Of a stretch of 38,033 nt of DNA, positions 16,309 through 38,033 are shown piece by piece; the first letter of the stretch is position 1; every line of letters begins with the position of its first letter. The position numbers and the translations under genes are program-made. A model generated the notes under the pieces. It did no database searches. It was given only the letters and a program-made list of their open reading frames with translations, and was not told the DNA's origin. This stretch comes from Alphaproteobacteria bacterium (GTDB taxonomy: Bacteria > Pseudomonadota > Alphaproteobacteria > Micavibrionales > Micavibrionaceae), in contig JAOUOR010000012.1 in assembly GCA_029880245.1 (NCBI GenBank), positions 1 to 38,033 of the forward strand. Direction: 5' to 3'.

Positions 16309-17670
16309 ATGTCAGAGAATTTAATACCGCCACACAAGATCAGAACCCGTTTTTCCCGCGCCATGTCCCTTATGTACCGCGAGGAAGTGCCAGCTTATGG
16401 TACGCTTCTGGATATGGTGCGTGATGTGAATATGTCCGTGCTGGAAAATGATCCGGAACTAAAAAAGAAGCTCTCGGAAAGTGATAATCTGGAGCGCATC
16501 ACCGAAGAACGTCACGGCGCGATTCGAATCGGCAAAGCCGAGGAACTTGCAACCATGTCACGCCTGTTCGGTGTGATGAATATGAAAGCCGTAAGCTATT
16601 ACGACCTCACCCAGGCCGGAGTTCCTGTTCATTCCACATGCTTTCGTCCTATTGACGGGGATGAACTTTCAAAATCTCCTTTCCGCGTTTTCACATCTCT
16701 TTTGCGCACAGAACTTATCACCGATCCGGAATTAAGAAAAAAATGTGAAGCCATACTGGAAATAAGGGATATTTTCGGCGATGAACTGCGTTATCTGATC
16801 GACAAGGCCGAAAAACAAGGCGGTCTGGATGATGAGGACTCAGACACCTTCATCGTTGAGGCCACCCACGTTTTCAAATGGCACGAAGATGCCGTCGTCG
16901 ATAAAGATTTCTACCTCCAGCTCAAAGCCATCGACCCGCGCGCTGCCGATATTGTGTGCTTCAAGGGGCCGCATATCAACCACCTGACCCCGCGCACACT
17001 CGACATTGATGAAGTACAGCGCCAGATGCCCTTGCACGGAATCAACCCGAAAAACGTGATTGAAGGCCCGCCGCAAAGCTGTCCCGTTTTATTGCGCCAG
17101 ACCTCTTTCAAGGCCCTGACCGAGCCGGTAAAATTCCACGGAGTAGAGGGCGAACATACAGCCCGCTTTGGCGAGATCGAACAACGCAGCGCAGCCCTCA
17201 GACCGGAGGGGCGCAGCCTTTATGATGAATTTCTCAATAAAGTGCGCGAGACAATCATCCCCGCCATAGACGGCTCGAACGCCGATGAATATATGCAGGT
17301 TCTGGAAGACACCTTCAAAGCCTTCCCGAGCACTTACGAAGAAATGCGCAAAGAAAATCTGGCCTATTTCCAGTATTTCCTGACCGAAAAAGGCAAAAAT
17401 CATCACGGCACAGTAACACGCAATATCAATAACCTCATCCGTGACGGCCTTGTTGATTATATCCCGATCGTATATGAAGATTTCCTGCCCGTCAGCGCCG
17501 CCGGAATTTTCTCCTCCAACGCTTCGGACCATGAAACCAAGGACCTGTTCAAAAGCTCCTCACAGGAAGAATTTGAAAAGGCTCTGGGCCATGAAGTCTT
17601 AAGTGAATTCGACCTTTATGAAGCAATTGAGAAAAACTCGATTGCCAAGGTTCTGGGGTATTTTAGGTGA
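16309..17670 (+). CDS. hglS: 2-oxoadipate dioxygenase/decarboxylase HglS (DUF1338)
   Basis: HglS (YdcJ, DUF1338) is an Fe(II)-dependent enzyme that converts 2-oxoadipate to D-2-hydroxyglutarate with loss of CO2, in the aminoadipate route of lysine catabolism described in Pseudomonas putida. The 453-residue protein has its expected metal and substrate residues: His69 and Arg73 in RHGAIRIG, His225 in GPHINHLTPR, and a Glu near 289-291 in RFGEIEQR. Length fits the family (about 460). It is divergent from the ALDH7 gene with an 83-bp spacer. Product fate would be oxidation to 2-oxoglutarate by a D-2-hydroxyglutarate dehydrogenase, not seen here. Confidence 0.88.
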   Translation: MSENLIPPHKIRTRFSRAMSLMYREEVPAYGTLLDMVRDVNMSVLENDPELKKKLSESDNLERITEERHGAIRIGKAEELATMSRLFGVMNMKAVSYYDLTQAGVPVHSTCFRPIDGDELSKSPFRVFTSLLRTELITDPELRKKCEAILEIRDIFGDELRYLIDKAEKQGGLDDEDSDTFIVEATHVFKWHEDAVVDKDFYLQLKAIDPRAADIVCFKGPHINHLTPRTLDIDEVQRQMPLHGINPKNVIEGPPQSCPVLLRQTSFKALTEPVKFHGVEGEHTARFGEIEQRSAALRPEGRSLYDEFLNKVRETIIPAIDGSNADEYMQVLEDTFKAFPSTYEEMRKENLAYFQYFLTEKGKNHHGTVTRNINNLIRDGLVDYIPIVYEDFLPVSAAGIFSSNASDHETKDLFKSSSQEEFEKALGHEVLSEFDLYEAIEKNSIAKVLGYFR

Positions 17671-17705
17671 GTAAAAAGAGGCAGTAAAACCGTCCCTTCC
17701 TTTTT

Positions 17706-17783
17706 CTGTCATCCCGAGCGAAGTCGAGGGATCTAGATTCCTCCATGCCCCCGCATCAAGTGCGGGGTTAGTCGGAATGACAG
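17706..17783. repeat. Two adjacent GTCATYCCGA...GGRATC palindromes
   Basis: The 26 bases 17708-17733 occur exactly, in inverted orientation, at 28986-29011. The 49 bases 17735-17783, with a GCCCCCGCA...TGCGGGG-type stem, recur exactly at 37813-37861. Confidence 0.85.
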
Positions 17784-17795
17784 GAAGAAAAATAA

Positions 17796-17860
17796 CGTCA
17801 TTGCACGGCTTGTCCGTGCAATCTACTTGATGGATTACCCGCACAAGGCGGGTAATGACG
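17796..17860. repeat. Double hairpin repeat
   Basis: ATTGCACGG/CCGTGCAAT and ATTACCCGC/GCGGGTAAT are two perfect stems in tandem, bounded by GTCA and TGAC. Built like the GTCATTCC family but with different stems. Confidence 0.7.
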
Positions 17861-17874
17861 TTTAGTGAAAAACA

Positions 17875-17917
17875 ATTCCCTCCCCCCATACGGGGAGAGG
17901 GATTAAGGGGGAGGGAA
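17875..17917. repeat. CTCCCC/GGGGAG repeat
   Basis: The GC-rich inverted repeat around ACGGGGAGAGGGATTAAGG is related, in opposite orientation, to the element at 37406-37444 (CTTAATCCCTCTCCCCATGG). Confidence 0.7.
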
Positions 17918-17926
17918 AATAACAAT

Positions 17927-18027
17927 TAGTCATTTGAGATAGTTCTCGGACAAGGCGCTAGCGACGAAGCGTATAAGAATACGTAAGAAGCGACGCAACG
18001 CTGTCCGGAACTAAAATCAAATGACTA
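17927..18027. repeat. Long palindrome (element B)
   Basis: Arms 17927-17952 and 18002-18026 are inverted copies of about 26 bases (TAGTCATTTGA at the outer end). The core 17949-18005 closely matches that of element A at 6862-6919. The right terminus CTA provides the stop codon of the vWFA gene. The arms differ entirely from those of element A. Confidence 0.8.
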
Positions 18028-20370
18028 GCGCTTAAAGGTTTTCGCCAATCTCACAAGCTGGATAAACTCGGAGCGGTAACCAAAAGGATCATCCCCTTTA
18101 CCGATCTGGGCCATCTTGATCACATCATCCATGCTAAGATCACCGACATTATGATCATGCTTCAGGATTTGCCCAAAGCCCGCCACAGAAGCCGCAAAGA
18201 GCGCTTCGCGTTGCAGATCATTCACGGCCGTCGTCATTTCGTATTTCACATTCGTGAAATCATAGACATCCTCGCCACCGCCTAGCTTAACAAGCGTAGT
18301 GATCAGCTTGCTTTTGGACTCGCTTGGCAGTTTATAGCGCATCTTTAGATATGCATATTCCTGCGTATTGCCTTCGGGGATGCTGGTTTCTGCCGTTGGT
18401 TTTTTGACCCCGTAGCGCAGCGGATCAATACTCACAGCCTCGCTGCCCACCGGAACGAATTCATAGATCGCGGTGACTGTGTGCCCTGCCCCGATATCGC
18501 CGGCATCGACCTTGTCATTATTGAAATCCTCACGCTTCAGCGCTCTGGTCTCATAACCGATCAGGCGATACTCAGCGACTGTATTGGGGTTAAACTCAAT
18601 CTGGAACTTCACATCCTTGGCAATCGGGAAGAGCGAAGACGTTGCTTCCTCGACCAGAACTTTGCGCGCTTCATTGAGATTATCAATATAAGCCGCCACG
18701 CCGTTACCATTTTGCGCCAGAGCCTGCATCAACTGGTCATTCACATTACCTGACCCAAAGCCAAGAACAGAGAGATATACGCCATTATCGCGTTTTTCCT
18801 CGATATATTCTTTCAAGGCTTCGTGATTACTCATCCCGACATTAAAATCGCCATCAGTCGCTAGAATAACGCGGTTTAAGGCTTCCTGATCGAAATTCTG
18901 CTCGGCCAGTTGATAGGCCAAGGCAATCCCGGCCGCACCAGCCGTTGATCCACCTGCATTCAAATTATCAATCGCATTGAAAATCTTGCTGCGCTCACGC
19001 ACTTTTGTCGGCTCCAGAACCGTTCCGGCAGAGCCTGCATAAACCGCAATCGCCACAGTATCATCCGGATGAAGGCTATCAAGCAGCATCTTCATCGAGG
19101 ATTTCACCAGCGGCAATTTATCCGGCGCATTCATAGAACCCGACGTATCGAGCAAAAACACCAGATTACTGCGCGGCTTTTCGCTGATCTCGTAACCTTT
19201 AATGCCAATTTGCATCAGCTTCTTGCCTTCCGCCCACGGGCTGTCCATGATAACAACCGTAGGTTTGAAGGGTTGAGCCTGATCCGTCGCATGAGGATAC
19301 GCATAATCGAAGTAATTCACCATTTCCTCGATGCGAACCGCATGACGATCCGGCAAACGTCCCATATTAAGCTGCTTACGGACAAAGCTGTAACTCGCCG
19401 TATCAACATCACTGGAGAATGTCGAGACAGGCTCTTCGGCCACCGTCTTGAACGGGTTAGGTTTTGTTTCCTCGAATTTATCGCGGTTTTGATCCTGATA
19501 AATCGGCGGCACGACATCAGGCTGAGGGGCAATCACTATATTCGAAGTCGGCGCATTAAAGAGCGGCGCAGAGCGCCCCGCCACTGCATCCGCCTCGGCA
19601 GGCTTATTCCCACGTGCTTCACCTTCAACACGTTCTTCTTGCAGTGTACGCCACATAACTAGCGGATCTTCCTCTTGTAGTCGTTTATCTTGTAGTCTTT
19701 TATCCGCCTTAGACAATGCCAAACGCTCTGTCGGCGCTTCCATCGGCACAGGTATTGCACTTTCACCGTTTTGGATAGCACGCTCCAATTCCGCTTCATT
19801 CTTTTGCTTAACCGCCGCAACATAAGCTGGCATCGCTTCATCCGTTCCAGGTGGATGCGATACTTGCGTATCGGATTTACCGTCCGTATCAGAAGAAAAG
19901 AAATCGACAATTGCTTCTGCCACTTTGCTTGATCTGGATGTAGAAACATTTGCTGCAATAGATCCGAAATTATTCGTGCTGCTGCTAGGTTGTCGTTGAG
20001 GAACCGCGTCTCCTTTCTCAATATAAGTACCGCTAGTTACTTTGCTCCCTGCACCCTGTGGCAATTTTGTAATATCATAGGTTTTCTCCGACACCATCGT
20101 GCCCACCACAAGAACCGCTGCCAGCGTCGCCAGGGCCGTTCCTGTCAAAAATTTGTTACGTTGTTTCATCTGTGTTCTCCTCTCATAAACATTGGATTTG
20201 CCTATAAGACGAGCGAATAACGAATTTCCTTGGGATTTTTTTTGATTTTTTTCATGGCTTGACGCTTTAAACTCTGCCACAGCCAGATTAACCGCTCTTT
20301 TCCGCGCATTATCATCCACGGGCGGAGCAATATCTTCTGACAGGATTTTTTTCAAACTATTCTCATCCAT
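18025..20370 (-). CDS. Membrane-anchored von Willebrand factor A protein (YfbK-like) with anti-sigma-like N-terminus
   Basis: This 781-residue protein has a charged cytoplasmic N-terminus (1-73) and one membrane helix (about 74-92, FLTGTALATLAAVLVVGTMV). A long low-complexity Pro/Glu-rich linker runs to about 300. The N-terminal vWA-associated region at about 300-395 comes next. The vWFA domain at about 402-575 has a full metal-ion site (DTSGSM 408-413, Thr475, ATDGD 503-507), and a C-terminal DUF3520-like domain follows. This is the YfbK architecture. Its start overlaps the ECF sigma gene by eight bases and AGGAG lies within that gene, so the two are co-translated. The N-terminus is therefore a candidate anti-sigma segment (inference); it has no zinc-type HxxxCxxC motif. 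Confidence 0.85.
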   Translation of the reverse strand: MDENSLKKILSEDIAPPVDDNARKRAVNLAVAEFKASSHEKNQKKSQGNSLFARLIGKSNVYERRTQMKQRNKFLTGTALATLAAVLVVGTMVSEKTYDITKLPQGAGSKVTSGTYIEKGDAVPQRQPSSSTNNFGSIAANVSTSRSSKVAEAIVDFFSSDTDGKSDTQVSHPPGTDEAMPAYVAAVKQKNEAELERAIQNGESAIPVPMEAPTERLALSKADKRLQDKRLQEEDPLVMWRTLQEERVEGEARGNKPAEADAVAGRSAPLFNAPTSNIVIAPQPDVVPPIYQDQNRDKFEETKPNPFKTVAEEPVSTFSSDVDTASYSFVRKQLNMGRLPDRHAVRIEEMVNYFDYAYPHATDQAQPFKPTVVIMDSPWAEGKKLMQIGIKGYEISEKPRSNLVFLLDTSGSMNAPDKLPLVKSSMKMLLDSLHPDDTVAIAVYAGSAGTVLEPTKVRERSKIFNAIDNLNAGGSTAGAAGIALAYQLAEQNFDQEALNRVILATDGDFNVGMSNHEALKEYIEEKRDNGVYLSVLGFGSGNVNDQLMQALAQNGNGVAAYIDNLNEARKVLVEEATSSLFPIAKDVKFQIEFNPNTVAEYRLIGYETRALKREDFNNDKVDAGDIGAGHTVTAIYEFVPVGSEAVSIDPLRYGVKKPTAETSIPEGNTQEYAYLKMRYKLPSESKSKLITTLVKLGGGEDVYDFTNVKYEMTTAVNDLQREALFAASVAGFGQILKHDHNVGDLSMDDVIKMAQIGKGDDPFGYRSEFIQLVRLAKTFKR

Positions 20371-20902
20371 GTTTCCGCTCCTTTCCGAATACAGCTTCCA
20401 GCTTTTTGCGTGCTTCGTGGATTCGCCATGAAATCGTACTTTCCTTTACCCCGCATAATTTGGCAGCCTCTTTATGTGATAACCCTTGCGCCATCACCAG
20501 CAAAAGCGATTCTTTCTCTGCTTCGGGCAATTTATGCACCTCTGCCCAGACTTGGGATGCGTAAAGACTATCCTCCGCATTATCCCGTACCTGAATAGTT
20601 TCAAGCATCTGCTCCCCACCATGATCATGGCGCCCTTGCGCCTTCACCCAGTCCTTGGCAGTGTTAATGACAAGACGGTAAAGCCAACTCGTAAAAGCCG
20701 AATCACCTTTATAACTGGAAATCCCTCGGGCAAGCTTGATACACGCCTCTTGCGTGATATCCTCCGCATCCCTTTGATTGCCGCACCATTTAAATGCCAT
20801 TTTGAACATTGCCTCATAATACATATTCACCAATGCCTCGAAAGCATCAGAGTTCCCGCTTTGCGCGGCTTTTACTAAATTTTGCGTTTCTGCCTCGGGC
20901 AT
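20363..20902 (-). CDS. ECF-subfamily RNA polymerase sigma factor
   Basis: This 179-residue sigma-70 factor of the extracytoplasmic-function group has region 2 at about 20-88, with AEDITQEACIKLARG and TSWLYRLVINTAKDW. Region 4 lies at about 117-170, with LPEAEKESLLLVMAQGLSHK and the helix-turn-helix KEAAKLCGVKESTISWRIHEARKKL. Regions 1.1 and 3 are absent, as usual. AAAGGGA precedes the ATG. It is coupled to the downstream membrane vWFA gene, suggesting an envelope-stress or surface-signal system. The regulon is unknown. An AAC...GTC pattern upstream could be its own promoter, but this is weak. Confidence 0.9.
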   Translation of the reverse strand: MPEAETQNLVKAAQSGNSDAFEALVNMYYEAMFKMAFKWCGNQRDAEDITQEACIKLARGISSYKGDSAFTSWLYRLVINTAKDWVKAQGRHDHGGEQMLETIQVRDNAEDSLYASQVWAEVHKLPEAEKESLLLVMAQGLSHKEAAKLCGVKESTISWRIHEARKKLEAVFGKERKHG

Positions 20903-21041
20903 AAATTCCCTTTGTCCAAATATAAAACAGGACCTAGTTTACAAAAGTTAGACGCTTCGAACAGACAAAATCTTGGAATTTTTTTTATTTTTTTATTTTC
21001 ACCCTGATAATTACAAAAAAACTCTGCTAGAAGTTTTTAAG

Positions 21042-22274
21042 ATGAACACACTTTCAGCCGCACATGAAGACACAAAACTTGCCCCTTGGTTCCTGATCGG
21101 CAGCATGGCCCTGATGATCCTGTTTTCACTGGAATTTCCCAGAATTCTGGGGTGGTTTCCCTTTCTAATAGGCATTGGAACACTGATATATTGCCGATTT
21201 TGGATTCAAGAAAAACTGATAATTCCCAAAACTCTTGGCCTTACCTTACTTGGTATTATTATTTTAGCGTCTACAAGCCTCATCTGGTCGGAGTTTTCTT
21301 CTGAGTTACCAGTCAGAATCTTGAAAATTGCAGGACTTTTTATCGGTGGACTTGTTTTGTATACGAGCCTGCCAAACATAAAAATCGGCAATCACCCCGC
21401 CCTATTACTCTTGCCGCTCGCCGCCGGAGCCACCATGTTCCTGTGCTCGCTTGAACTAATCTTTGATTTACAGCTCTACCACCTGAGCCATGGTACAACA
21501 AGAAATCCTAATATAAGTACCGCCGTATTAAATAGAGGCATTGTTTTTCAGGTACTGCTCTTTTTTCCCATGCTCACAATCATAAAAAAATCAGCATTAG
21601 AGGAAAATCACAAGAAACAGGCAACCGTGTTTTACTGTGCTTTAATGTTGATTATGTTAGCACTAACCCAGAGCCAGTCCGCGCAACTTGCCTTTGTAAT
21701 CGGTACCCTCACCTATTTCGTTTTTCCCTATAAGTATAAACCCGCCTATAAGATCACAGCCATTTTGATTGCAATCGCGATTGTTACAACGCCTTTTATT
21801 GTTAAGCTAATGTTTAACGCCATAGTCGTTGATGTGAATTCCGTGCCCTGGATCAAAGAAGGCTACGCCGCAGAGCGCCTTGAAATCTGGAACTTTGTCA
21901 CAAGCTATGCCCTAAAAAGCCCTGTATTTGGACACGGCATTCTGGTCACACGTTTTATAGAGGATTTTGACACCAAACAAATCTTCTTTAAAGCAGCAAC
22001 CGTTTTACATCCTCATAATTTCTCCGTTCAAATCTGGATCGAATTCGGCGCCATCGGAGCCTTGCTGGCCTCGGCTCTGTTTGCTTTCTATCTCAATACA
22101 ATAAGTAAGGAAAAACCGGAAGATAGCCGCCTTACATTAGCCGTATTCATATCCGCCCTCACCGTTATGGCTGTTGGTTACGGGATGTGGCAAAGCTGGT
22201 GGATTGGAATGCTATTTTTTATAGCATCTCTAATAGCGTTAATAAAACGACTTCCTTCGAATTCGACACCATAA
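21042..22274 (+). CDS. O-antigen ligase/polymerase-like membrane protein
   Basis: This 410-residue polytopic membrane protein has about ten hydrophobic helices. A longer loop before the conserved HPHN (from residue 323) and the region WIEFGAIGALLASALFAFYL are typical of the Wzy/WaaL (O-antigen ligase, PF04932-like) superfamily. Such proteins join or polymerise undecaprenyl-linked glycans on the periplasmic face of the inner membrane. I used the ATG at 21042; an upstream TTG in frame lies in AT-rich promoter sequence. No other polysaccharide gene is adjacent, but ugd is 8 kb away. Ligase and polymerase cannot be told apart by sequence alone. Confidence 0.8.
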   Translation: MNTLSAAHEDTKLAPWFLIGSMALMILFSLEFPRILGWFPFLIGIGTLIYCRFWIQEKLIIPKTLGLTLLGIIILASTSLIWSEFSSELPVRILKIAGLFIGGLVLYTSLPNIKIGNHPALLLLPLAAGATMFLCSLELIFDLQLYHLSHGTTRNPNISTAVLNRGIVFQVLLFFPMLTIIKKSALEENHKKQATVFYCALMLIMLALTQSQSAQLAFVIGTLTYFVFPYKYKPAYKITAILIAIAIVTTPFIVKLMFNAIVVDVNSVPWIKEGYAAERLEIWNFVTSYALKSPVFGHGILVTRFIEDFDTKQIFFKAATVLHPHNFSVQIWIEFGAIGALLASALFAFYLNTISKEKPEDSRLTLAVFISALTVMAVGYGMWQSWWIGMLFFIASLIALIKRLPSNSTP

Positions 22275-22504
22275 AAGCATGACTATGTAAATTATAATGC
22301 ATTATTATACATAAATTTTGTATTCCATAATAATGGCAATAGTATTTACAAAACAAATACTTAATTCACTATTTGAACTATTCAGGATTTTTCTAAAAAA
22401 AATTTGCAATTCACAAAAAATAGGCGTAGGTTTCATAGGTATGCGGTCATTACAGAGCAAATAATTGCCATTTGGGCCGGATACGGGGAGATAGGATAAT
22501 ATAA
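22275..22504. other. AT-rich upstream region of the 22606 gene
   Basis: I see no gene in this part of the 331-base gap. It is strongly AT-rich to about 22440 and then contains GGGGAGATA at 22485-22493. That word matters for the leader described separately. Confidence 0.5.
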
Positions 22505-22608
22505 GTGCTGTGTGTCTTTAATCCTTCTTCCATTTACATAATGTTAACCTTTTATAGGATATTCTCCCCTTTTTAGCTCACATGTTATCCGGGGGGAGAT
22601 ACAAAGTG
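22485..22608 (+). promoter_or_regulatory. Putative translational switch: alternative pairings around the ribosome site of the 22606 gene
   Basis: The word GGGGAGATA appears twice, at 22485-22493 and at 22593-22601 (inside the Shine-Dalgarno of the 22606 gene). Between them lies a single complement, TATTCTCCCC at 22560-22569. That strand can pair with only one copy at a time: pairing with the second hides the ribosome site, pairing with the first frees it. The complement also lies within a small reading frame (22505-22576), so translation of that frame would open the site. The pattern is seen in the sequence; the switching is inference. Confidence 0.4.
22505..22576 (+). CDS. Possible 23-residue leader peptide
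   Basis: A GTG start preceded by AGGA (22493-22496) at 8-base spacing opens a frame of 23 codons ending in TAG. The peptide would be hydrophobic and aromatic (MLCVFNPSSIYIMLTFYRIF plus three residues). Its last codons overlap the strand that can mask the downstream ribosome site. Small frames occur by chance, so this rests mainly on its position and ribosome site. Confidence 0.3.
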   Translation: MLCVFNPSSIYIMLTFYRIFSPF

Positions 22609-23853
22609 AAACAAGTGGGATTAACGGCAGCGTTACAAAATCGCGGACAATTTGCAGATGGCTTTCCAAAAATCAAGTCTTTCGAGGATATGAGTTATGG
22701 TGCTCAGGTCCAGCGAGCCCTAGATACCGCCAGAGAACACGTCAGAAAGGTTTTCGGTGATGCTTCCGTAGGTTTTGAAAACAAACATGAACTTAATGGG
22801 AACCAAAACCATTATACCGGGGATAATGAATGGGATGAACCCTACGGTATTGATGACGCACCCGACCTTAAGATTACAACAAAACAAAAAGAAAAAGATG
22901 ACCAAACCACCAATGATTATGTGTTAGCAGATCTTGACATTGGCAGCAGCCTACGGGACCCTAATAGTTACGACCCAACCAAAGGCGTTATTGCTACTAA
23001 AATTGGTCGCGCCGCGCTTAATAATACCGCAATAGACAGCTTGAACGCCGTCAAAGAGAAAAAAGACAGGGAAGCCTACGCCTTCCTTGTATCAAACCAG
23101 CGTTTAAAAGATCAAATTCGTGAGCAGACCAAATATCTGCTGGAAAGGCTTAAAGAAGCCAGAGCATTCCTCGCCAGTATGAGCGAAGCAGATCTGGATA
23201 CGAAAAATACAAATGCCGAAAGTATCGACAAGAGGAAAGAACTTAGACGCCGTCTTGAAGAAATGGGCCTGGATATTAATGATTATATTGGTGAAAACGG
23301 GACACTTGATAGTAAAAGAATTGATCAGGACATGATTGCCGCTGCAGCAACTCAAATGGGTCTGGATAATGTTTCTACCAGAATATTGCAGAACAAAACC
23401 AAGCCTGAAATTAATGCTAATGAATTACTGGGTACACCTATACCAACACAGACCTTTAACGCAGCATCTACCACGACAAACGGAAATGACGGTGCGGAAA
23501 TTGCTGATCAAGCCCCTGAAGATGTCGCTAAATCAATGCTGGCTTCTCTTGGCTTCTCCTCCGGATCAAATATCGATTCCATGAAAAATGACGACTTTAC
23601 TTTTGAACCTGAAAGTGAGGGAGATTTTGCATTAGATGAACGTAACTATGAAAGCATAAGTGTTGCCGAAGCCGTAGAAACTTCTGATGATCCTCAGGAA
23701 AATTCGTTTTTACCCTCTGGCGCGTGGCAAACAATGGAACTTGCAAGCGCGTTCCAGCCAGTAGCTACATTTGTTCAAGAAAATCAGCCAGTTCTCGACG
23801 CAGAAAAAAGTTACGGATATACTGGTTATGTCGATTCTATGAAAATGGCATAA
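22606..23853 (+). CDS. Hypothetical Asp/Asn-rich soluble protein
   Basis: I do not recognise this family. The protein is about 415 residues, acidic and rich in Asn, Asp and Lys, with no signal peptide or membrane helix. It has a helical central part (about residues 140-225, with KEKKDREAYAFLVSNQ and many charged residues, probably coiled coil). A disordered acidic C-terminus contains MLASLGFSSGSNIDSMKNDD. I place the start at GTG 22606 (MKQVGLTAALQNRG) because GGGGGGAG lies at good spacing; an ATG at 22582 is the alternative. It is convergent with the next gene. The leader suggests regulated translation. Confidence 0.7.
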   Translation: MKQVGLTAALQNRGQFADGFPKIKSFEDMSYGAQVQRALDTAREHVRKVFGDASVGFENKHELNGNQNHYTGDNEWDEPYGIDDAPDLKITTKQKEKDDQTTNDYVLADLDIGSSLRDPNSYDPTKGVIATKIGRAALNNTAIDSLNAVKEKKDREAYAFLVSNQRLKDQIREQTKYLLERLKEARAFLASMSEADLDTKNTNAESIDKRKELRRRLEEMGLDINDYIGENGTLDSKRIDQDMIAAAATQMGLDNVSTRILQNKTKPEINANELLGTPIPTQTFNAASTTTNGNDGAEIADQAPEDVAKSMLASLGFSSGSNIDSMKNDDFTFEPESEGDFALDERNYESISVAEAVETSDDPQENSFLPSGAWQTMELASAFQPVATFVQENQPVLDAEKSYGYTGYVDSMKMA

Positions 23854-23888
23854 AATCTTTCCGCTGATAGCACAAATTAGATGGTTTT

Positions 23889-24737
23889 CTATTCCAGATT
23901 AAGAGCCTCTGGATTTTTGACAGTAGAATCACCAGAACCATTCCGAGCCTTCTCCTGAGATATTTTATTGCCCTGTTCAATAAGTTCTATCAACTCTTCA
24001 TTGTTTATAGAAACGAGATTGTGCCACCATATCTCTCTTACACTTTCAATAGCTTCCTTGAGATCACCAATGTTTCCATAAAGCTCCCCTCTAACAAAAA
24101 CTAAAATGCCTTCTTCTTGTTGCTTTGATGTTAAACTTTTCTTGTCCCCCTCCGAAGGAACTACCCGAAAAATACCACCAATAAAAGGTGCTGTATCTTT
24201 ATAGTGCTCTTTATTAAAGTCGATCTCGCCTTGAACAGCCTCTGCAACCTTATATATTCTGTTTCTATCTCCTATAACGCCTAAATGAATAAAGGTCTGA
24301 GCTTTCTTTTGAGCTAACAATCTAACGTAATCTTTCAATGTTTCTATATTAAAAGCAACAGGCTGCTCCTCCCCATGCGATTTTGCTTCAGGAGGTTTTC
24401 TATTTGATAATTCCCAATACTTTTTAGGAATCCCACCAGTATGAACAAATTCTCTGTTAATCCCATAACTTTCTTTACCATTTTTATTTACCGTTTTTCC
24501 ATAAATTTTCTGCGATTTCGGATTCCTTTTTATTTCATCAACTACTATTTTCATTGTATCCCAAGTAGATTTAGAAATATTCAGGCGATTTGTATTTATT
24601 TGAACTGCTTGCGTTTGCCCTTCTTGACCTTGATTTGAAACAGGTTCTTGAGCAAGCACATCCCCTGCAAAAGTCGTCGCTGCCAAAGCCGCTGCCAAAA
24701 CTGGTCCTAGTGTTTTATTGCTTTTTTCAGAAGACAT
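23889..24737 (-). CDS. Hypothetical exported protein
   Basis: I do not recognise this family. The 282-residue protein has a signal peptide (MSSEKSNKTLGPVLAAALAA then TTFAGDVLA, cleavage before QEP). A Gln-rich stretch follows, then a soluble alpha/beta-like domain with IHLGVIGDRNRIYKVAEAVQ and GGIFRVVPSEGDKK. It contains no cysteine in the mature part. I chose the ATG at 24737 because AAGGTG lies six bases upstream; an in-frame ATG at 24761 lacks a ribosome site. It is a single gene, convergent with the 22606 gene. Location would be periplasmic or secreted. Confidence 0.7.
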   Translation of the reverse strand: MSSEKSNKTLGPVLAAALAATTFAGDVLAQEPVSNQGQEGQTQAVQINTNRLNISKSTWDTMKIVVDEIKRNPKSQKIYGKTVNKNGKESYGINREFVHTGGIPKKYWELSNRKPPEAKSHGEEQPVAFNIETLKDYVRLLAQKKAQTFIHLGVIGDRNRIYKVAEAVQGEIDFNKEHYKDTAPFIGGIFRVVPSEGDKKSLTSKQQEEGILVFVRGELYGNIGDLKEAIESVREIWWHNLVSINNEELIELIEQGNKISQEKARNGSGDSTVKNPEALNLE

Positions 24738-24854
24738 CTTAATCACCTTATTTGTTGTCATTTAAATAGTTGTAATTCATACCCATTATTCAGGGTTATA
24801 ATCAATTACATATGAATATGCAAATTTTTTATTGCCATAAGTAAGGAAAATATC

Positions 24855-24879
24855 AAAAAAAGCCGGAATATGCTTTTTT
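24855..24879 (-). terminator. Rho-independent terminator of the 24882 gene
   Basis: Read on the minus strand just after the stop codon: AAAAAAGC, an 8-base loop, then GCTTTTTTT. The A/T-rich stem with a run of T is a typical terminator. Confidence 0.65.
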
Positions 24880-24881
24880 AC

Positions 24882-25571
24882 TTACTTGTTATAGCACCCC
24901 AGAGATATCATCCCCGCCGTTTCCACAGCCGCGTCATAATCACCCTTCGCCAGATCATAGATCTTATTGATCAACATCTCATCTGCGTTTTCAAATCTCT
25001 CATAGGGCGTTCCTTCGAAATTAACTTCTTTTCGCTCATACGCCGCAATCAGGCTTTCTTTCTCGCGTCTGTTTTTTACGCCATTGACCACATCCAGTGC
25101 AAATTCCGTAACCCCGACACATGTCTCGTGCAAATCGACCTCTTCTTTGGCGTCTTTGGAATCCTTTATCTTTTCCGCCCCTTTAATGCAGTCAATATAC
25201 TCTTCCATATTCTTCACAGTGGCCTCTATCGGACCATGCTTATCCAGCTTTTTATAAACATCGGCAAAAAGCGGCTCGAACATCTTGGCCTGAGCGGAAA
25301 TTTGCTCAAGTTTTGTTTTCTGATAATACATTCCCTTGGCCACGGTAAAGAATGCTGCGCGCTTTCCGCATCCCCTTGGGGTCATAGGAAAAGCCGCCGC
25401 CACGATATCAACTTCTTCAAATCCGGTAGAAGGCACAAACCCGCCTTGACGAGATGACGACAATATTTCATCCGCACTCTGGGCCGCCAATTGCTTGCTA
25501 TCGGCGAATAATATCCCGACCGCTACGGCAAAAAGTACAAGTGCAAAAAAAGAAATGACATAAACGCGCAT
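24882..25571 (-). CDS. Hypothetical membrane-anchored or exported four-cysteine protein
   Basis: I do not recognise this family. The 229-residue protein has an N-terminal hydrophobic segment (MRVYVISFFALVLFAVAVGI), either an uncleaved anchor or a signal peptide. The mature part is mostly helical and charged, with four cysteines (in RGCGKR, DCIKG, ETCVG and LGCYNK), an even number compatible with two disulfides. It is co-directional with cysQ 87 bases upstream and followed by a clear terminator, so it may be the last gene of the sulfate-activation transcript. No catalytic motif is visible. Confidence 0.7.
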   Translation of the reverse strand: MRVYVISFFALVLFAVAVGILFADSKQLAAQSADEILSSSRQGGFVPSTGFEEVDIVAAAFPMTPRGCGKRAAFFTVAKGMYYQKTKLEQISAQAKMFEPLFADVYKKLDKHGPIEATVKNMEEYIDCIKGAEKIKDSKDAKEEVDLHETCVGVTEFALDVVNGVKNRREKESLIAAYERKEVNFEGTPYERFENADEMLINKIYDLAKGDYDAAVETAGMISLGCYNK

Positions 25572-26646: not shown

Positions 26647-28626
26647 GAGGACATAATCTAGAATCTGCTCTTTAGCTTGAGAATCATCTGACAAATCACC
26701 CGGCGCTATTTGTGCTTCAATATACTCTACAAGCTGCTTAACACAAAAATCAATGTCGTTATTTTGTGTATCAATCATTAATTCCGGATTAGCCGGCGTT
26801 TCATAAGGCGCATCGATCCCTGTAAAGTCCTTGATTTTACCATCCCGGGCCTTTTTATAAACACCCTTCTTATCACGGCTTTCGCATGCATCCAGATCAG
26901 CAGAAAGATAAATCTCATGGTACAACCCCTCGACCCGATCCCTGATCCTTCGGCGATCCGCACGATATGGTGAAATCACAGAAACGATCACGACATTACC
27001 GGCCTCGGCCATCATTTGTGCCACATATCCAGTCCGGCGTATATTCTCGGCGCGATCCTCCGGCGTAAAACCAAGATCTTTATTAATACCCACACGCAAA
27101 TTATCACCATCAACCACACTCACATTGATGCCTTTTTCAAACAGGATTTTTTCCGCCGCCATAGCCAAAGTTGTTTTCCCCGCAGAAGACAGACCCGTTA
27201 GCCAGAATATTCCGCTCCTATGGCCGTTTTTCTTCGCGCGCAATTCCTGCGTAATAATATGATCTACCGCCTCGACATTTTGCGCCTTTGGCGCATTTCT
27301 TCTCTGATCGGCATAGCCTTCCATGCTAATCACGCCGCCTCCCGCAATATCGTAATTCTCGTACAAAACAAAGCGGCCAGTCTGCGGATTATCACTATAT
27401 GGATCAATCGGCAGCATATCACGCGCACGCAATGTAACCTCGGCCACCGCATTACGCACCACCTCGCCTGACTTCGAATCATCGGATAAATCCTGCGTAT
27501 CAATCACCTTATCAATAGATTGAACTGAAACCATCGCCTCGTGCTTCGCATAGCGAATCTTATAAGAATTCCCGACCTTAAGCGGCTTATGAGCAAGCCA
27601 GAACAAGCTCGCCCGAAATACATTAGAGAGCATTGGCGGGTTTTCAACATGCGAGCCAATATGCCCACGCTCTACAAATAAACGCTGATCCAGTGTAATC
27701 CCTATAGACTCGCCTGGCTTGGCCTCTATTTTATCGGGATTTTCAGGCCAGACTTCAATGGATTGGACTGTAGCTTGCTCATCCCCCGGTGCAAATTGCA
27801 AAACATCGCCTTTGCGTAAAACACCCGTCTCAACGCGGCCAACGATAATGCGGCGCTCTTCATAGCGATAAACATCCTGCACAGGAAAACGAAGCGGCAA
27901 AGATATTGGTGCAGGTGCAATCTCGAAACTATCCAGAACCTTAATCAGAGAATGCCCCTCATACCAATCCATATTCTCCCCGCGCTCGGAAATCATATCC
28001 CCTTCCCGCGCCGAAATCGGAACGATAAAACGCGGCACAATATTAAGCGAGCCCAGATACTCCTTCACCTCGCGCACCACCTTGTCATAAGCCTCCGGCT
28101 CATAACCCAGCATATCCATCTTGTTAATCACCACAGCAATCTGCTGCAAACCAAGAAGATGCAAAAGATAAGCGTGCCGCCGCGTTTGCTCCTGCACCCC
28201 TTCCGTACCATCGACCACCAGAATAGCCGCATCTGCTGCCGCCGCACCGGAGATCATATTCTTGAGAAACTCACGGTGACCAGGCGCATCAATAATCACA
28301 TAATCGCGCTCATCTGTAGAAAACCATATTTGCGTCGAGTCAATCGTGATGGCCTGATCGCGCTCAGCCTGAAAGGAATCCAGAACAAATGACCACTCCA
28401 GAGCATCCGTCCCGCGCCGATCACAAATAGCCCTTAGCTCTTCATACTTCCCTTCCGGCAAAGAATCCGTGTCATATAAAAGACGGCCGATCAAAGTCGA
28501 CTTCCCGTGATCCACGTGCCCGACAATCACCACTTTGAGCGGATGCCTCGCATTTTGTTTTTTCCGTCCCTTTGGTGGGTTCGAAGAAATCACCTCTATG
28601 TTTTTCTTCTGGTTAGTTTTTGTCAT
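26644..28626 (-). CDS. cysNC: Bifunctional sulfate adenylyltransferase subunit 1 / APS kinase CysNC
   Basis: The CysN part is the GTPase subunit of ATP sulfurylase, which with CysD makes APS; the CysC part phosphorylates APS to PAPS. The 660-residue fusion has GTPase motifs [12 protein letters not shown] (36-47), DAPGH (113-117) and NKMD (168-171), then elongation-factor-like beta domains. The kinase begins about 475 with P-loop GLSSAGKTT (478-486) and [16 protein letters not shown]. Its ATG lies inside the 3' end of the upstream GIY-YIG gene with AAGGA close by. The kinase domain is not needed by the APS-type CysH here, so PAPS is presumably used for sulfation (inference). Confidence 0.94.
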
Positions 28627-28969
28627 TTTCCTTTAACTCCATTGTCATTCCGAACGTCTCGCCAGAGACGGAGGAATCCGACCCGTTCTCCTGTTCAAAA
28701 AGGTCAAGCCACTGTGGGTTCATACGCTCCACAAGACGGTCCTTTTTCTCGCGTCTCCATTTTTTGACTTCCTTTTCACGAGCAATAGCTTCGTTCACAT
28801 CCATAAATTCTTCGCAATAGACAAGTTTATTCACATTATATTTTTTGGAAAAGCCCTCATATAAACCATACTTGTGCTCATAAATTCGTTTTTCAAGATC
28901 ACCTGTTATACCTATATAAAGCACCGCATTCGTATAATTTGTAATCATATAAACATGGTACGATTTCAT
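28613..28969 (-). CDS. GIY-YIG family endonuclease, solitary
   Basis: This is a small single-domain GIY-YIG nuclease of the UPF0213/YhbQ type. VYMI (6-9) and LYIGIT (17-22) form the motif. Arg28 in LEKRIYEH and the Glu in [11 protein letters not shown] (61-71) supply the expected catalytic residues, and the family ending [12 protein letters not shown] is present. Residues from about 96 onward ([15 protein letters not shown]) are read through a GTCATTCCGA...GGAATCC palindrome, so the C-terminal tail is repeat-derived. Two more palindromes lie just upstream of its start. It splits the cysD-cysNC operon, a place where no nuclease is expected. The stop overlaps the cysNC start by 14 bases. The biological substrate of such proteins is not established. 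Confidence 0.85.
28636..28674. repeat. GTCATTCCGA...GGAATCC palindrome inside the GIY-YIG 3' end
   Basis: CGTCTC/GAGACG forms the inner stem and GTCATTCCG...GGAATCCGA the outer signature. It is translated as the tail of the GIY-YIG protein and ends ten bases before the cysNC start codon. Confidence 0.75.
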
Positions 28970-28985
28970 ATTTTCTTTCTCTTTA

Positions 28986-29062
28986 GATCCCTCGACTTCG
29001 CTCGGGATGACAAAAACCCGATAATGTCATTCCGACCAAGCGCAGCGCGTGGAGGAATCTTT
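28986..29062. repeat. Two palindromes upstream of the GIY-YIG gene
   Basis: The first, GATCCCTCGACTTCGCTCGG and onward, is the exact reverse complement of 17708-17733. The second is a GTCATTCCGA...GGAATCTT copy with a GCGCAGCGC centre. They lie between the GIY-YIG start and the end of the secreted-protein gene. Confidence 0.8.
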
Positions 29063-29071
29063 TATTTTCCA

Positions 29072-29626
29072 CTACAACCCGCTATCAAGAGCTTTTTGAA
29101 AACGATCACAAGTTTCCTTCTTGGCGCCGCAAAACATAGTTATACTCTTTAGCCTCTTTCCGTTTTGTTCTATTATTTCCTTACACAAGATTGAAGGATG
29201 AGCTTCAAAATTGTCCTTTGTCAAAACCCATGTCAAACCATTGAGATAGTCTTCATAATATTCGTAACGTTCATCTTCTTCGGTAAAAGAAAGCTCAAGA
29301 TCCCCTCGAATATCTCTGAAAGCTAAAAATATGCTGCCAAATTCTCTCTCACATAGCTCAAACGGCCCATCAGGAACCTCAGCAGTTTCCGCCCTATTAT
29401 GCCCGGGTATTTGTTGATAAATACCCTCGCTATTTTCCATAGTTTGCGGATCAACCGGATATGGGTTTGGATTTTGCTGCGGATCTGCGAATGGATTCGG
29501 GTTTTGTTGTGGATACGGGTTAGGATATGCATTCGGATAATATGGAGGCGGCTGTTCATTTTGAGCTTGAGCCATGCCCGAAACAAATAATACAACACCG
29601 AAAAAAACCAATAAAACCAATCGCAT
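29072..29626 (-). CDS. Hypothetical secreted Pro/Asn/Tyr-rich protein
   Basis: I do not recognise this family. The 184-residue protein has a signal peptide (MRLVLLVFFGVVLFVSGMAQ then AQ). A low-complexity region follows with repeated NPYP and QQNPNP units (about residues 27-60). A C-terminal acidic helical domain has four cysteines (ELCERE, ILCKEI, MFCGAK, ETCDRF), enough for two disulfides. I used the ATG at 29626, which shares its A with the TGA of cysD (TGATG), so translation is coupled to cysD. Such coupling of a secreted protein to a cytosolic sulfurylase gene is unusual. No function can be given. Confidence 0.75.
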   Translation of the reverse strand: MRLVLLVFFGVVLFVSGMAQAQNEQPPPYYPNAYPNPYPQQNPNPFADPQQNPNPYPVDPQTMENSEGIYQQIPGHNRAETAEVPDGPFELCEREFGSIFLAFRDIRGDLELSFTEEDERYEYYEDYLNGLTWVLTKDNFEAHPSILCKEIIEQNGKRLKSITMFCGAKKETCDRFQKALDSGL

Positions 29627-36434: not shown

Positions 36435-37325
36435 ATGGATTATAGCATAAATGCATTAGAAATCAAAGCGTTAGGTAAAAATAACCAGCTAAATTCAAAC
36501 CCTGTCATAGCGGCTATTCAAACAGCCAGCACAAAATCCGGGGTCGATTTTTCCTATCTGGTTAAACAGGCAAAAGTCGAGAGTAATTTTGATAATAATG
36601 CCAAAGCCAAAACCAGCTCCGCTACTGGATTATACCAGTTTCTGGATAAAACATGGATGTCTATGATTGACCGTCACGGAGAAACTTACGGCCTTGAAAC
36701 AGAGGGCCTGAGCAAAAAGGAAATTTTAGAAATGCGAAAAGACCCTCAAGCTGCGTCTTTCATGGCTGCCGCTTTTGCCTCGGAAAACGAACAATTTCTT
36801 AATAGACATTGGGGCGGCGATATTGGCGATACAGAACTATATCTGGCACATTTTCTTGGCGCCAGTGGCGCTGCAACGTTCCTGAATGCCAGCGATGAAA
36901 ACCCGCTCCAGCCTGCTGCTGATATCTTCCCCAAAGCGGCTCTGGCCAACAGGAATGTTTTTTATAATAAAGAAACAGGCGAACCAAGAACCTTGCATGA
37001 AGTCTATAGCTTCTTTGCAAAAAAATTCGAAGGAAAAACGCCTCTGCCACGCAATGATAATATTGCCATAACCCAAAATAGCGGCATGAATTACAGCCCA
37101 TCCAAACGTCTATCAGGCAACCTTGTGATGCAGCGCGCTGATGCCATGCGGCAAAAAGCGTTGCTCAATATGGTGCAAACCCTTGATCATGGGCAAATCC
37201 GGCAAAATATTCTGGGCGGTGCTCACAAAACCAAATCGTCCCAGCCCTTTTACTCCCTTTTAGCCAAACCAGTTGACCTGATTATGCTAACGCAAAATAT
37301 TGATAAGGATATTGACGGGGCCTAG
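36435..37325 (+). CDS. Lytic transglycosylase-like (SLT-fold) protein without signal peptide
   Basis: This 296-residue protein has an N-terminal goose-lysozyme/SLT-type domain (about 24-140). The catalytic Glu49 is in KQAKVESNFD, followed by SATGLYQFLDKTW, LYLAHFLGASGAA and the C-terminal ANRNVFYN of the fold. The remaining 130 residues are poorly conserved and probably disordered. It would cleave peptidoglycan glycan strands. No signal peptide or membrane helix is visible, so export would need a non-classical route, as for transglycosylases of flagellar or secretion systems; alternatively the true start is further upstream. No flagellar gene is nearby in the window. Confidence 0.78.
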   Translation: MDYSINALEIKALGKNNQLNSNPVIAAIQTASTKSGVDFSYLVKQAKVESNFDNNAKAKTSSATGLYQFLDKTWMSMIDRHGETYGLETEGLSKKEILEMRKDPQAASFMAAAFASENEQFLNRHWGGDIGDTELYLAHFLGASGAATFLNASDENPLQPAADIFPKAALANRNVFYNKETGEPRTLHEVYSFFAKKFEGKTPLPRNDNIAITQNSGMNYSPSKRLSGNLVMQRADAMRQKALLNMVQTLDHGQIRQNILGGAHKTKSSQPFYSLLAKPVDLIMLTQNIDKDIDGA

Positions 37326-38033
37326 ATATTCCATTGCACATGTCATTTCGGGCAAGATCAATAAATCTGATGTTAAAACCACAGATACACTCGGATGAAC
37401 GAAAATCCCCCTCTCCCTTAATCCCTCTCCCCATGGGGAGAGGGAAAAACACGGAAGTGTCAGGGTGAGGGGCAATTAAAAACCCCTTCGTGTCCTTTGT
37501 GTCCTTCGTGGAAAAAAACTGTACCCCTCTCCTTGCATCCTGACGAAAGTCAGGATCCCTTAACACCCTACTTAGATCCTGATTGGCATCAGGGTGTGTA
37601 TACGGGCCCATCTGCCACCGTCATCGCCTGAATCTGCGTTCAGCAGATTCTAGGGCGATCTATAAAATTACTGGATTCCCTTAGAATCCACTTAGCATGG
37701 ATTCAGGGAATGACAATAAAAGTATATTCGCGCTCATTTGTGTCCATTCGCGGTAAGAAAAGCTCGTCATTTCGAGCGAAGTCGAGAAATCTTATATCCT
37801 ATCAGCCAATACAGATTCCTCCATGCCCCCGCATCAAGTGCGGGGTTAGTCGGAATGACAGAGATAAAAGCTCTTTAGTGAAACTTAGTGATCTTCGTGT
37901 CTTCGTGGTAAAAAAAACTGGATTCCCTTAGAATCCACTTAGCGTGGATTCAGGGAATGACGATAAAAGTATATTCGCGTTCAACTGTCATCCCTGCGTA
38001 AGCAGGGATCTCCTTCCCTTATCCACCAGATCC
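37326..38033. repeat. Dense cluster of short palindromic and dispersed repeats
   Basis: No gene is visible; short frames here are read through repeats. The contents, left to right, are: a degenerate GTCATTTCG element; a CTCCCC/GGGGAG element; CTTCGTG-type A/T-flanked repeats (37487, 37892); perfect hairpin ATCCTGAC-GAAA-GTCAGGAT; ATCGCC...GGGCGAT; and a 63-base unit at 37670-37732 repeated with two changes at 37917-37979. Then come GTCATTTCGAGCGAAGTCGA at 37766, the 49-base unit shared with 17735-17783, and GTCATCCCTGCG...CAGGGATC at the right edge. Confidence 0.85.

Follow-up and report, generated by a model that had tools for sequence, protein, structure and literature searches.

Is translation of the gene at 22606 controlled by RNA structure in the stretch that precedes it and, if so, by which helices and together with which other elements? 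The question was raised by a first-pass annotation of the window (the whole stretch of DNA analysed, 38,033 nt, which is the entire contig C72 and part of the 2.15-Mb genome G000). According to that annotation, the word GGGGAGATA occurs twice upstream of the gene, the second time within its ribosome-binding site, and a single complement lying between the two copies could pair with either of them. Ribosomes on a 23-codon leader frame, or a shift between two equally strong helices, would then expose the start of the gene. The sequence, the genomic surroundings and the homologous loci of related genomes were used to determine which parts of this arrangement are conserved.

The repeated word and its complement

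The word GGGGAGATA was found at exactly two positions of the window, 22485-22493 and 22593-22601, against an expectation of 0.17 copies; none of 100 shuffles contained two, and the whole genome holds 11. The complement, TATTCTCCCC, lies at 22560-22569 and pairs with GGGGAGATA either over seven contiguous bases or through nine pairs and one bulged U. A 9-mer repeated at a distance of at least 30 nt, with a 7-nt complement in between, appeared in 0.085% of the dinucleotide shuffles of 22429-22608. The repeated word and its intervening complement are real, and their combination is rare among shuffles. The claim that the two helices are equal in strength stood for the isolated duplexes (-14.4 and -15.7 kcal/mol), but not for the leader folded as a whole, in which the downstream helix won completely (8.6 expected pairs versus 0.0 for the upstream helix). 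Overall, the stretch 22470-22625 did not fold with unusual stability (z = -0.62).

The gene at 22606 and its homologues

22606-23853, plus strand: the putatively regulated gene, which has a GTG start and encodes a 415-aa coiled-coil protein of no known family

The earlier statement that this gene has no recognisable family was borne out, since the protein had no accepted match in Pfam or NCBIfam. Its predicted structure (mean pLDDT 47.6) showed a confident fold only in a central helical stretch. Upstream of the leader lies an O-antigen-ligase-like gene (20973-22274, PF04932), and further upstream there are two divergent genes, one for an ECF-type sigma factor (20363-20902) and, beside it, one for a VWA/YfbK protein (18025-20370). 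Downstream of the 22606 gene come two opposite-strand genes of unknown function, followed by inositol monophosphatase and CysN/APS kinase genes. A homologue in genome G006 was detected by protein and DNA searches; those in G003, G005, G015, G016, G074, G106 and G009 were located by their position after the ligase/sigma gene and by the upstream motif described below. Together with G000, these make up a comparison set of nine loci from one family of Micavibrio-type Alphaproteobacteria. The neighbouring genes are conserved around the homologues in the nine genomes, and the proteins are alike in having a coiled-coil region and, around YxxxDGT, a short motif. They begin with M..VG, or something very close to it, in eight of the nine homologues, the start in G015 being less certain. 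When a protein profile made from eight homologues was run on 142 genomes of the order, it returned the nine known genomes and one weak, probably chance, match. A pattern scan of public genome contigs rendered five known loci and three firmicute matches (taken as chance) with no new member, and no further locus was found among viral contigs and plasmids. As judged from the genomes searched, the 22606 protein is lineage-specific.

Some features of the surroundings were recorded alongside. In eight of the nine genomes, G003 being the exception, the ECF-type sigma gene and its VWA/YfbK-domain partner adjoin the locus, and the same pair is also present in genomes where the coiled-coil gene is missing. 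The coiled-coil gene and the two opposite-strand genes (22606-25571) occur together in all eight genomes in which the sequence continues; the two partners encode here proteins of 290 and 229 aa, both with signal-peptide-like N termini. The three genes thus form a conserved neighbourhood. Elsewhere in the window, mechanical frames at 17599-17925, 28507-29152 and 37282-37611 give peptides of the LDFARDD / DPSTSLGMT kind that resemble one another, as if an intergenic repeat were dispersed in this genome.

Layout of the leader

Comparison of the nine loci led to the following elements being distinguished upstream of the gene:

22403-22428, plus strand: promoter-like motif TTTGCA-N14-RGCGTA (equivalent to TTTGCA-N16-CGTA), with the geometry of an ECF sigma promoter
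22439-22484, plus strand: hairpin P1 (22439-22448 with 22475-22484), with coevolving arms, where the transcript is expected to begin
22483-22493, plus strand: element 2, consensus ACAGGGRGA, here ACGGGGAGATA, directly after P1 and containing the first GGGGAGATA word
22533-22547, plus strand: AT-rich box TTTACATAATNTTAA, exact in six of the nine loci and near-exact in G006
22563-22571, plus strand: 5' arm of hairpin P2, the anti-SD strand TCTCCCCTT, which pairs with the SD
22591-22599, plus strand: 3' arm of P2, the SD sequence GGGGGGAGA, included in the same coevolution tests

The promoter-like motif, element 2 and the SD hairpin follow one another in the same order in all nine homologous loci, and the stretches between the conserved elements are largely unconserved. 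The spacing within TTTGCA-N14-RGCGTA was identical in the nine loci, three of which come from a second genus and one from a third; its conservation and position suggest that it acts as a promoter. From this motif to the start codon the leader measures 177 nt in the window and 177 to 230 nt in the eight genomes other than G015. Element 2, or a one-base variant of it, was present in every locus, starting 50 to 60 nt past the promoter-like motif, so that the upstream G-rich word singled out by the first-pass annotation turned out to be part of a conserved element. No intrinsic terminator was found near the leader. Among the Rfam covariance models none scored above its gathering threshold in the window, and the leaders of G000 and G106 gave only chance-level matches.

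The AT-rich box lies 70 to 79 nt upstream of the start codon, and only a loose equivalent of it was seen in G003 and G015. In 104 genomes of the family TTTACATAATNTTAA occurred 41 times, compared with about two occurrences of the reversed pattern; the loci viewed were mostly intergenic, several of them 25-150 nt upstream of genes. Since the box is frequent elsewhere in the family genomes, it is not specific to this leader. Two candidate identities were rejected: a CtrA-type site (TTTAC-N6-TTAAC), since this general pattern shows no enrichment in the genus (47 occurrences versus 115 for the reversed control), and a sigma-70 promoter (TTTACA-N16-TAGGAT, 9/12 in the window), whose second hexamer lacks conservation among the relatives. 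Were a second promoter to lie at the box, as it may, its transcript would still have to include P2.

Two hairpins with coevolving arms

Coevolution was assessed by comparing the duplex energies of arms taken from the same genome with those of arms taken from different genomes. In seven representative genomes, 190 pairs of windows, each at a set distance from the landmarks, were scanned; the alignments had been viewed before windows were chosen, while the 190-pair scan itself used a regular window set. The sample consists of nine sequences that are unequally independent (three are from one genus, two are close). P1 and P2 emerged as the top two of the 190 pairs, each with a cognate advantage of ~5 kcal/mol (p below 1/4000).

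The arms of P1, chosen by inspection, had a duplex energy of -10.2 kcal/mol when cognate and -5.2 kcal/mol when non-cognate (p <= 0.0014 with nine, seven or six sequences). The sequence of P1 is different in each genome and its position is fixed. The arms evolve too rapidly to be aligned, and RNAalifold run on sequence alignments did not find this hairpin for that reason; the evidence for P1 comes from the coevolution test and from single-sequence folds. It did not figure in the first-pass proposal.

For P2, whose arms were likewise chosen by inspection, the coevolution test gave p = 0.0003, 0.002 and 0.01 with nine, seven and six sequences, respectively. RNAalifold recovered the core of P2 from the plain alignment, with two-sided changes at five of its seven pairs. 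In the nine full-length leaders the SD region had a mean probability of 0.13-0.35 of being unpaired, meaning that it is mostly paired. Taken alone, P2 was matched in stability by at most 11 of 300 shuffles in G000, G006, G003, G016 and G074; in G005 it was no more stable than the shuffles. The SD of the G016 clade is weak (-3.6 kcal/mol), and its masking may matter less there. The proposed sequestration of the 22606 gene's SD by a pyrimidine strand is thus supported by a helix that coevolves across nine genomes.

Element 2 as a candidate ribosome docking site

In six of the nine genomes, element 2 is the best match of the leader to the 16S tail; the match is poor in G005 and G009. In G016, G074, G106 and G003 the gene's own SD is weak and element 2 is strong. 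The genus of G016, G074 and G106 (L049, L050, L082) showed a near-absent SD at the start and a strongly SD-like upstream ACAGGGGGG, the inverse of the window genome. The match to the 16S tail, and its strength in leaders with a weak SD at the gene itself, suggest that element 2 might be a ribosome docking site, as in standby or STAB-SD. The predicted unpaired fraction of element 2 was only 0.30-0.66, no conserved start codon follows it in the nine loci, and SD pairing does not account for the invariant ACA preceding the G-run. A gene for RNase J (PF17770 match above the cut-off) is present in G000 and in 34 of 37 relatives.

Proposed mechanism and alternative explanations

Given that the folds of the leader are preserved across related genomes, translation of the 22606 gene is probably under the control of RNA structure. 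We think it rather likely that the stretch is a structured 5' UTR of ~170 nt, in which P2 holds the SD paired and translation low. The conserved layout and the coevolution of P1 and P2 come from comparison; from these we infer repression, the opening of P2 and docking. Transcription would probably start just past TTTGCA-N16-CGTA, producing an RNA that would carry, in this order, P1, ACAGGGRGA, a variable linker, the AU-rich box and P2 with the SD as its 3' arm. P2 would keep the SD paired, and hence translation low, and could be opened. Unpaired ACAGGGRGA near the 5' end would serve to dock a ribosomal subunit (for standby, or for RNase J protection) or some other factor. A more ambitious reading, which we regard as tentative and on balance doubtful, is that the leader represents a new class of cis-regulatory RNA confined to one Micavibrio-type family, in which P1 and the invariant ACAGGGRGA would sense a protein, a small RNA or the state of the ribosome and would control the opening of P2.

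Two alternatives depend on the upstream helix, formed by element 2 and the anti-SD strand. Element 2 and the SD might compete for the pyrimidine strand in a two-state switch that works without a peptide, the SD being freed by a ligand, a protein or the timing of transcription. In five of the nine genomes element 2 does find its best downstream partner in the anti-SD strand, and in transcripts ending before the SD the helix formed in G000, G003 and G009, and slightly in G015. However, it was absent or near zero in the truncated transcripts of G005, G006, G016, G074 and G106, and any G-rich word tends to pair with the most pyrimidine-rich stretch. No coevolution between element 2 and the strand was detected (p = 0.12-0.13 with nine, seven or six sequences), nor were the two ever paired in the full-length partition functions of the nine leaders. 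Covariation in the homologous leaders was therefore seen in the SD-masking helix but not in the upstream one; the second exclusive helix can form in a few of the genomes, that of the window among them, without coevolving and without being populated at full length, which makes such a switch unlikely. An erm-type attenuator would further need ribosomes stalled on the frame at 22505-22576 to shift the RNA from the SD-masking to the upstream helix, opening the gene. The window genome does contain this frame (GTG start, 23 codons), its end overlaps the anti-SD strand, and both isolated duplexes are similarly strong. Yet frames of at least 23 codons arose in 54% of the shuffles of 22429-22608, a length expected by chance, and no counterpart of the frame exists in the other genomes: single-base indels disrupt it in G006 relative to G000, the ATG, GTG or TTG codons within 45 nt of element 2 in the nine loci open unrelated frames of 1 to 32 codons with different ends, and in G016 there is no ATG, GTG or TTG 5-44 nt past element 2. 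The lack of the small frame in homologues was among the first-pass annotation's grounds for abandoning its proposal, and the leader-peptide part of it falls on this ground. With an unconserved frame of chance length, and an upstream helix that lacks coevolution and has zero weight in full-length folds, the erm-type model is not supported, and we hold it to be very improbable.

Other alternatives would do without the upstream helix. P2 might act as an RNA thermometer, melting with temperature and requiring no other part, and the hairpin that this would involve, masking the SD imperfectly through G-U pairs and mismatches, is found in every genome. Such a device leaves the conserved P1, element 2 and the long leader unexplained, and the stability of P2 varies widely across the genomes, which may also differ in growth temperature; we see it as distinctly unlikely. 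Repression by a CsrA-like protein bound to both GGGGAGATA copies would fit the consensus of element 2, which resembles the CsrA SELEX site, and the presence of one of the two copies over the SD, a CsrA-like arrangement. CsrA itself is contradicted, since its gene was found in none of 58 genomes, that of the window included, by a search that worked on controls, and the CsrA-like explanation is hardly credible as a result. A protein unrelated to CsrA could possibly bind the GGGGAGATA copies.

Comparison with known systems

The leader, with P2 masking the SD, is an undescribed, lineage-specific and comparatively supported structured 5' UTR from a lineage of small-genome bacteria in which RNA regulation appears to be little studied. 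It also illustrates that two exclusive helices visible in a single genome may be only half genuine: here selection acts on one of them, and neither on its counterpart nor on the leader peptide. The conserved layout makes direct tests simple.

As in the erm-type translational attenuators that served as a comparison system (PMC8274638), the SD is sequestered by a hairpin and, in the window genome, the SD word has an upstream copy able to compete for pairing; unlike in these attenuators, neither a leader peptide nor a second helix is conserved. With RNA thermometers the leader shares an SD within the 3' arm of an imperfect hairpin, and it differs from them in its additional conserved 5' hairpin and unpaired element. 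Ribosome standby in structured leaders has been described for tisB, and proposed for zor, in Escherichia coli (PMC11264685). There, as here, the start region is closed by structure and an upstream word resembling a ribosome-binding site does not itself start the gene; tisB and zor, however, are small-toxin genes repressed by a small RNA, whereas the present leader precedes a gene for a 415-aa coiled-coil protein for which no antisense RNA is known. The STAB-SD of cry3A, a 5' mRNA stabilizer described in Gram-positive bacteria (PMC4113751), is an SD-like word that lies close to the 5' end of a long leader and directs no translation. The position of element 2 near the predicted 5' end, with no conserved frame after it, would fit this, and RNase J is encoded here too. 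In contrast to STAB-SD, the word in the present leader is preceded by a coevolving 5' hairpin, the true SD is masked, and the invariant core, ACAGGG, falls short of the best SD.
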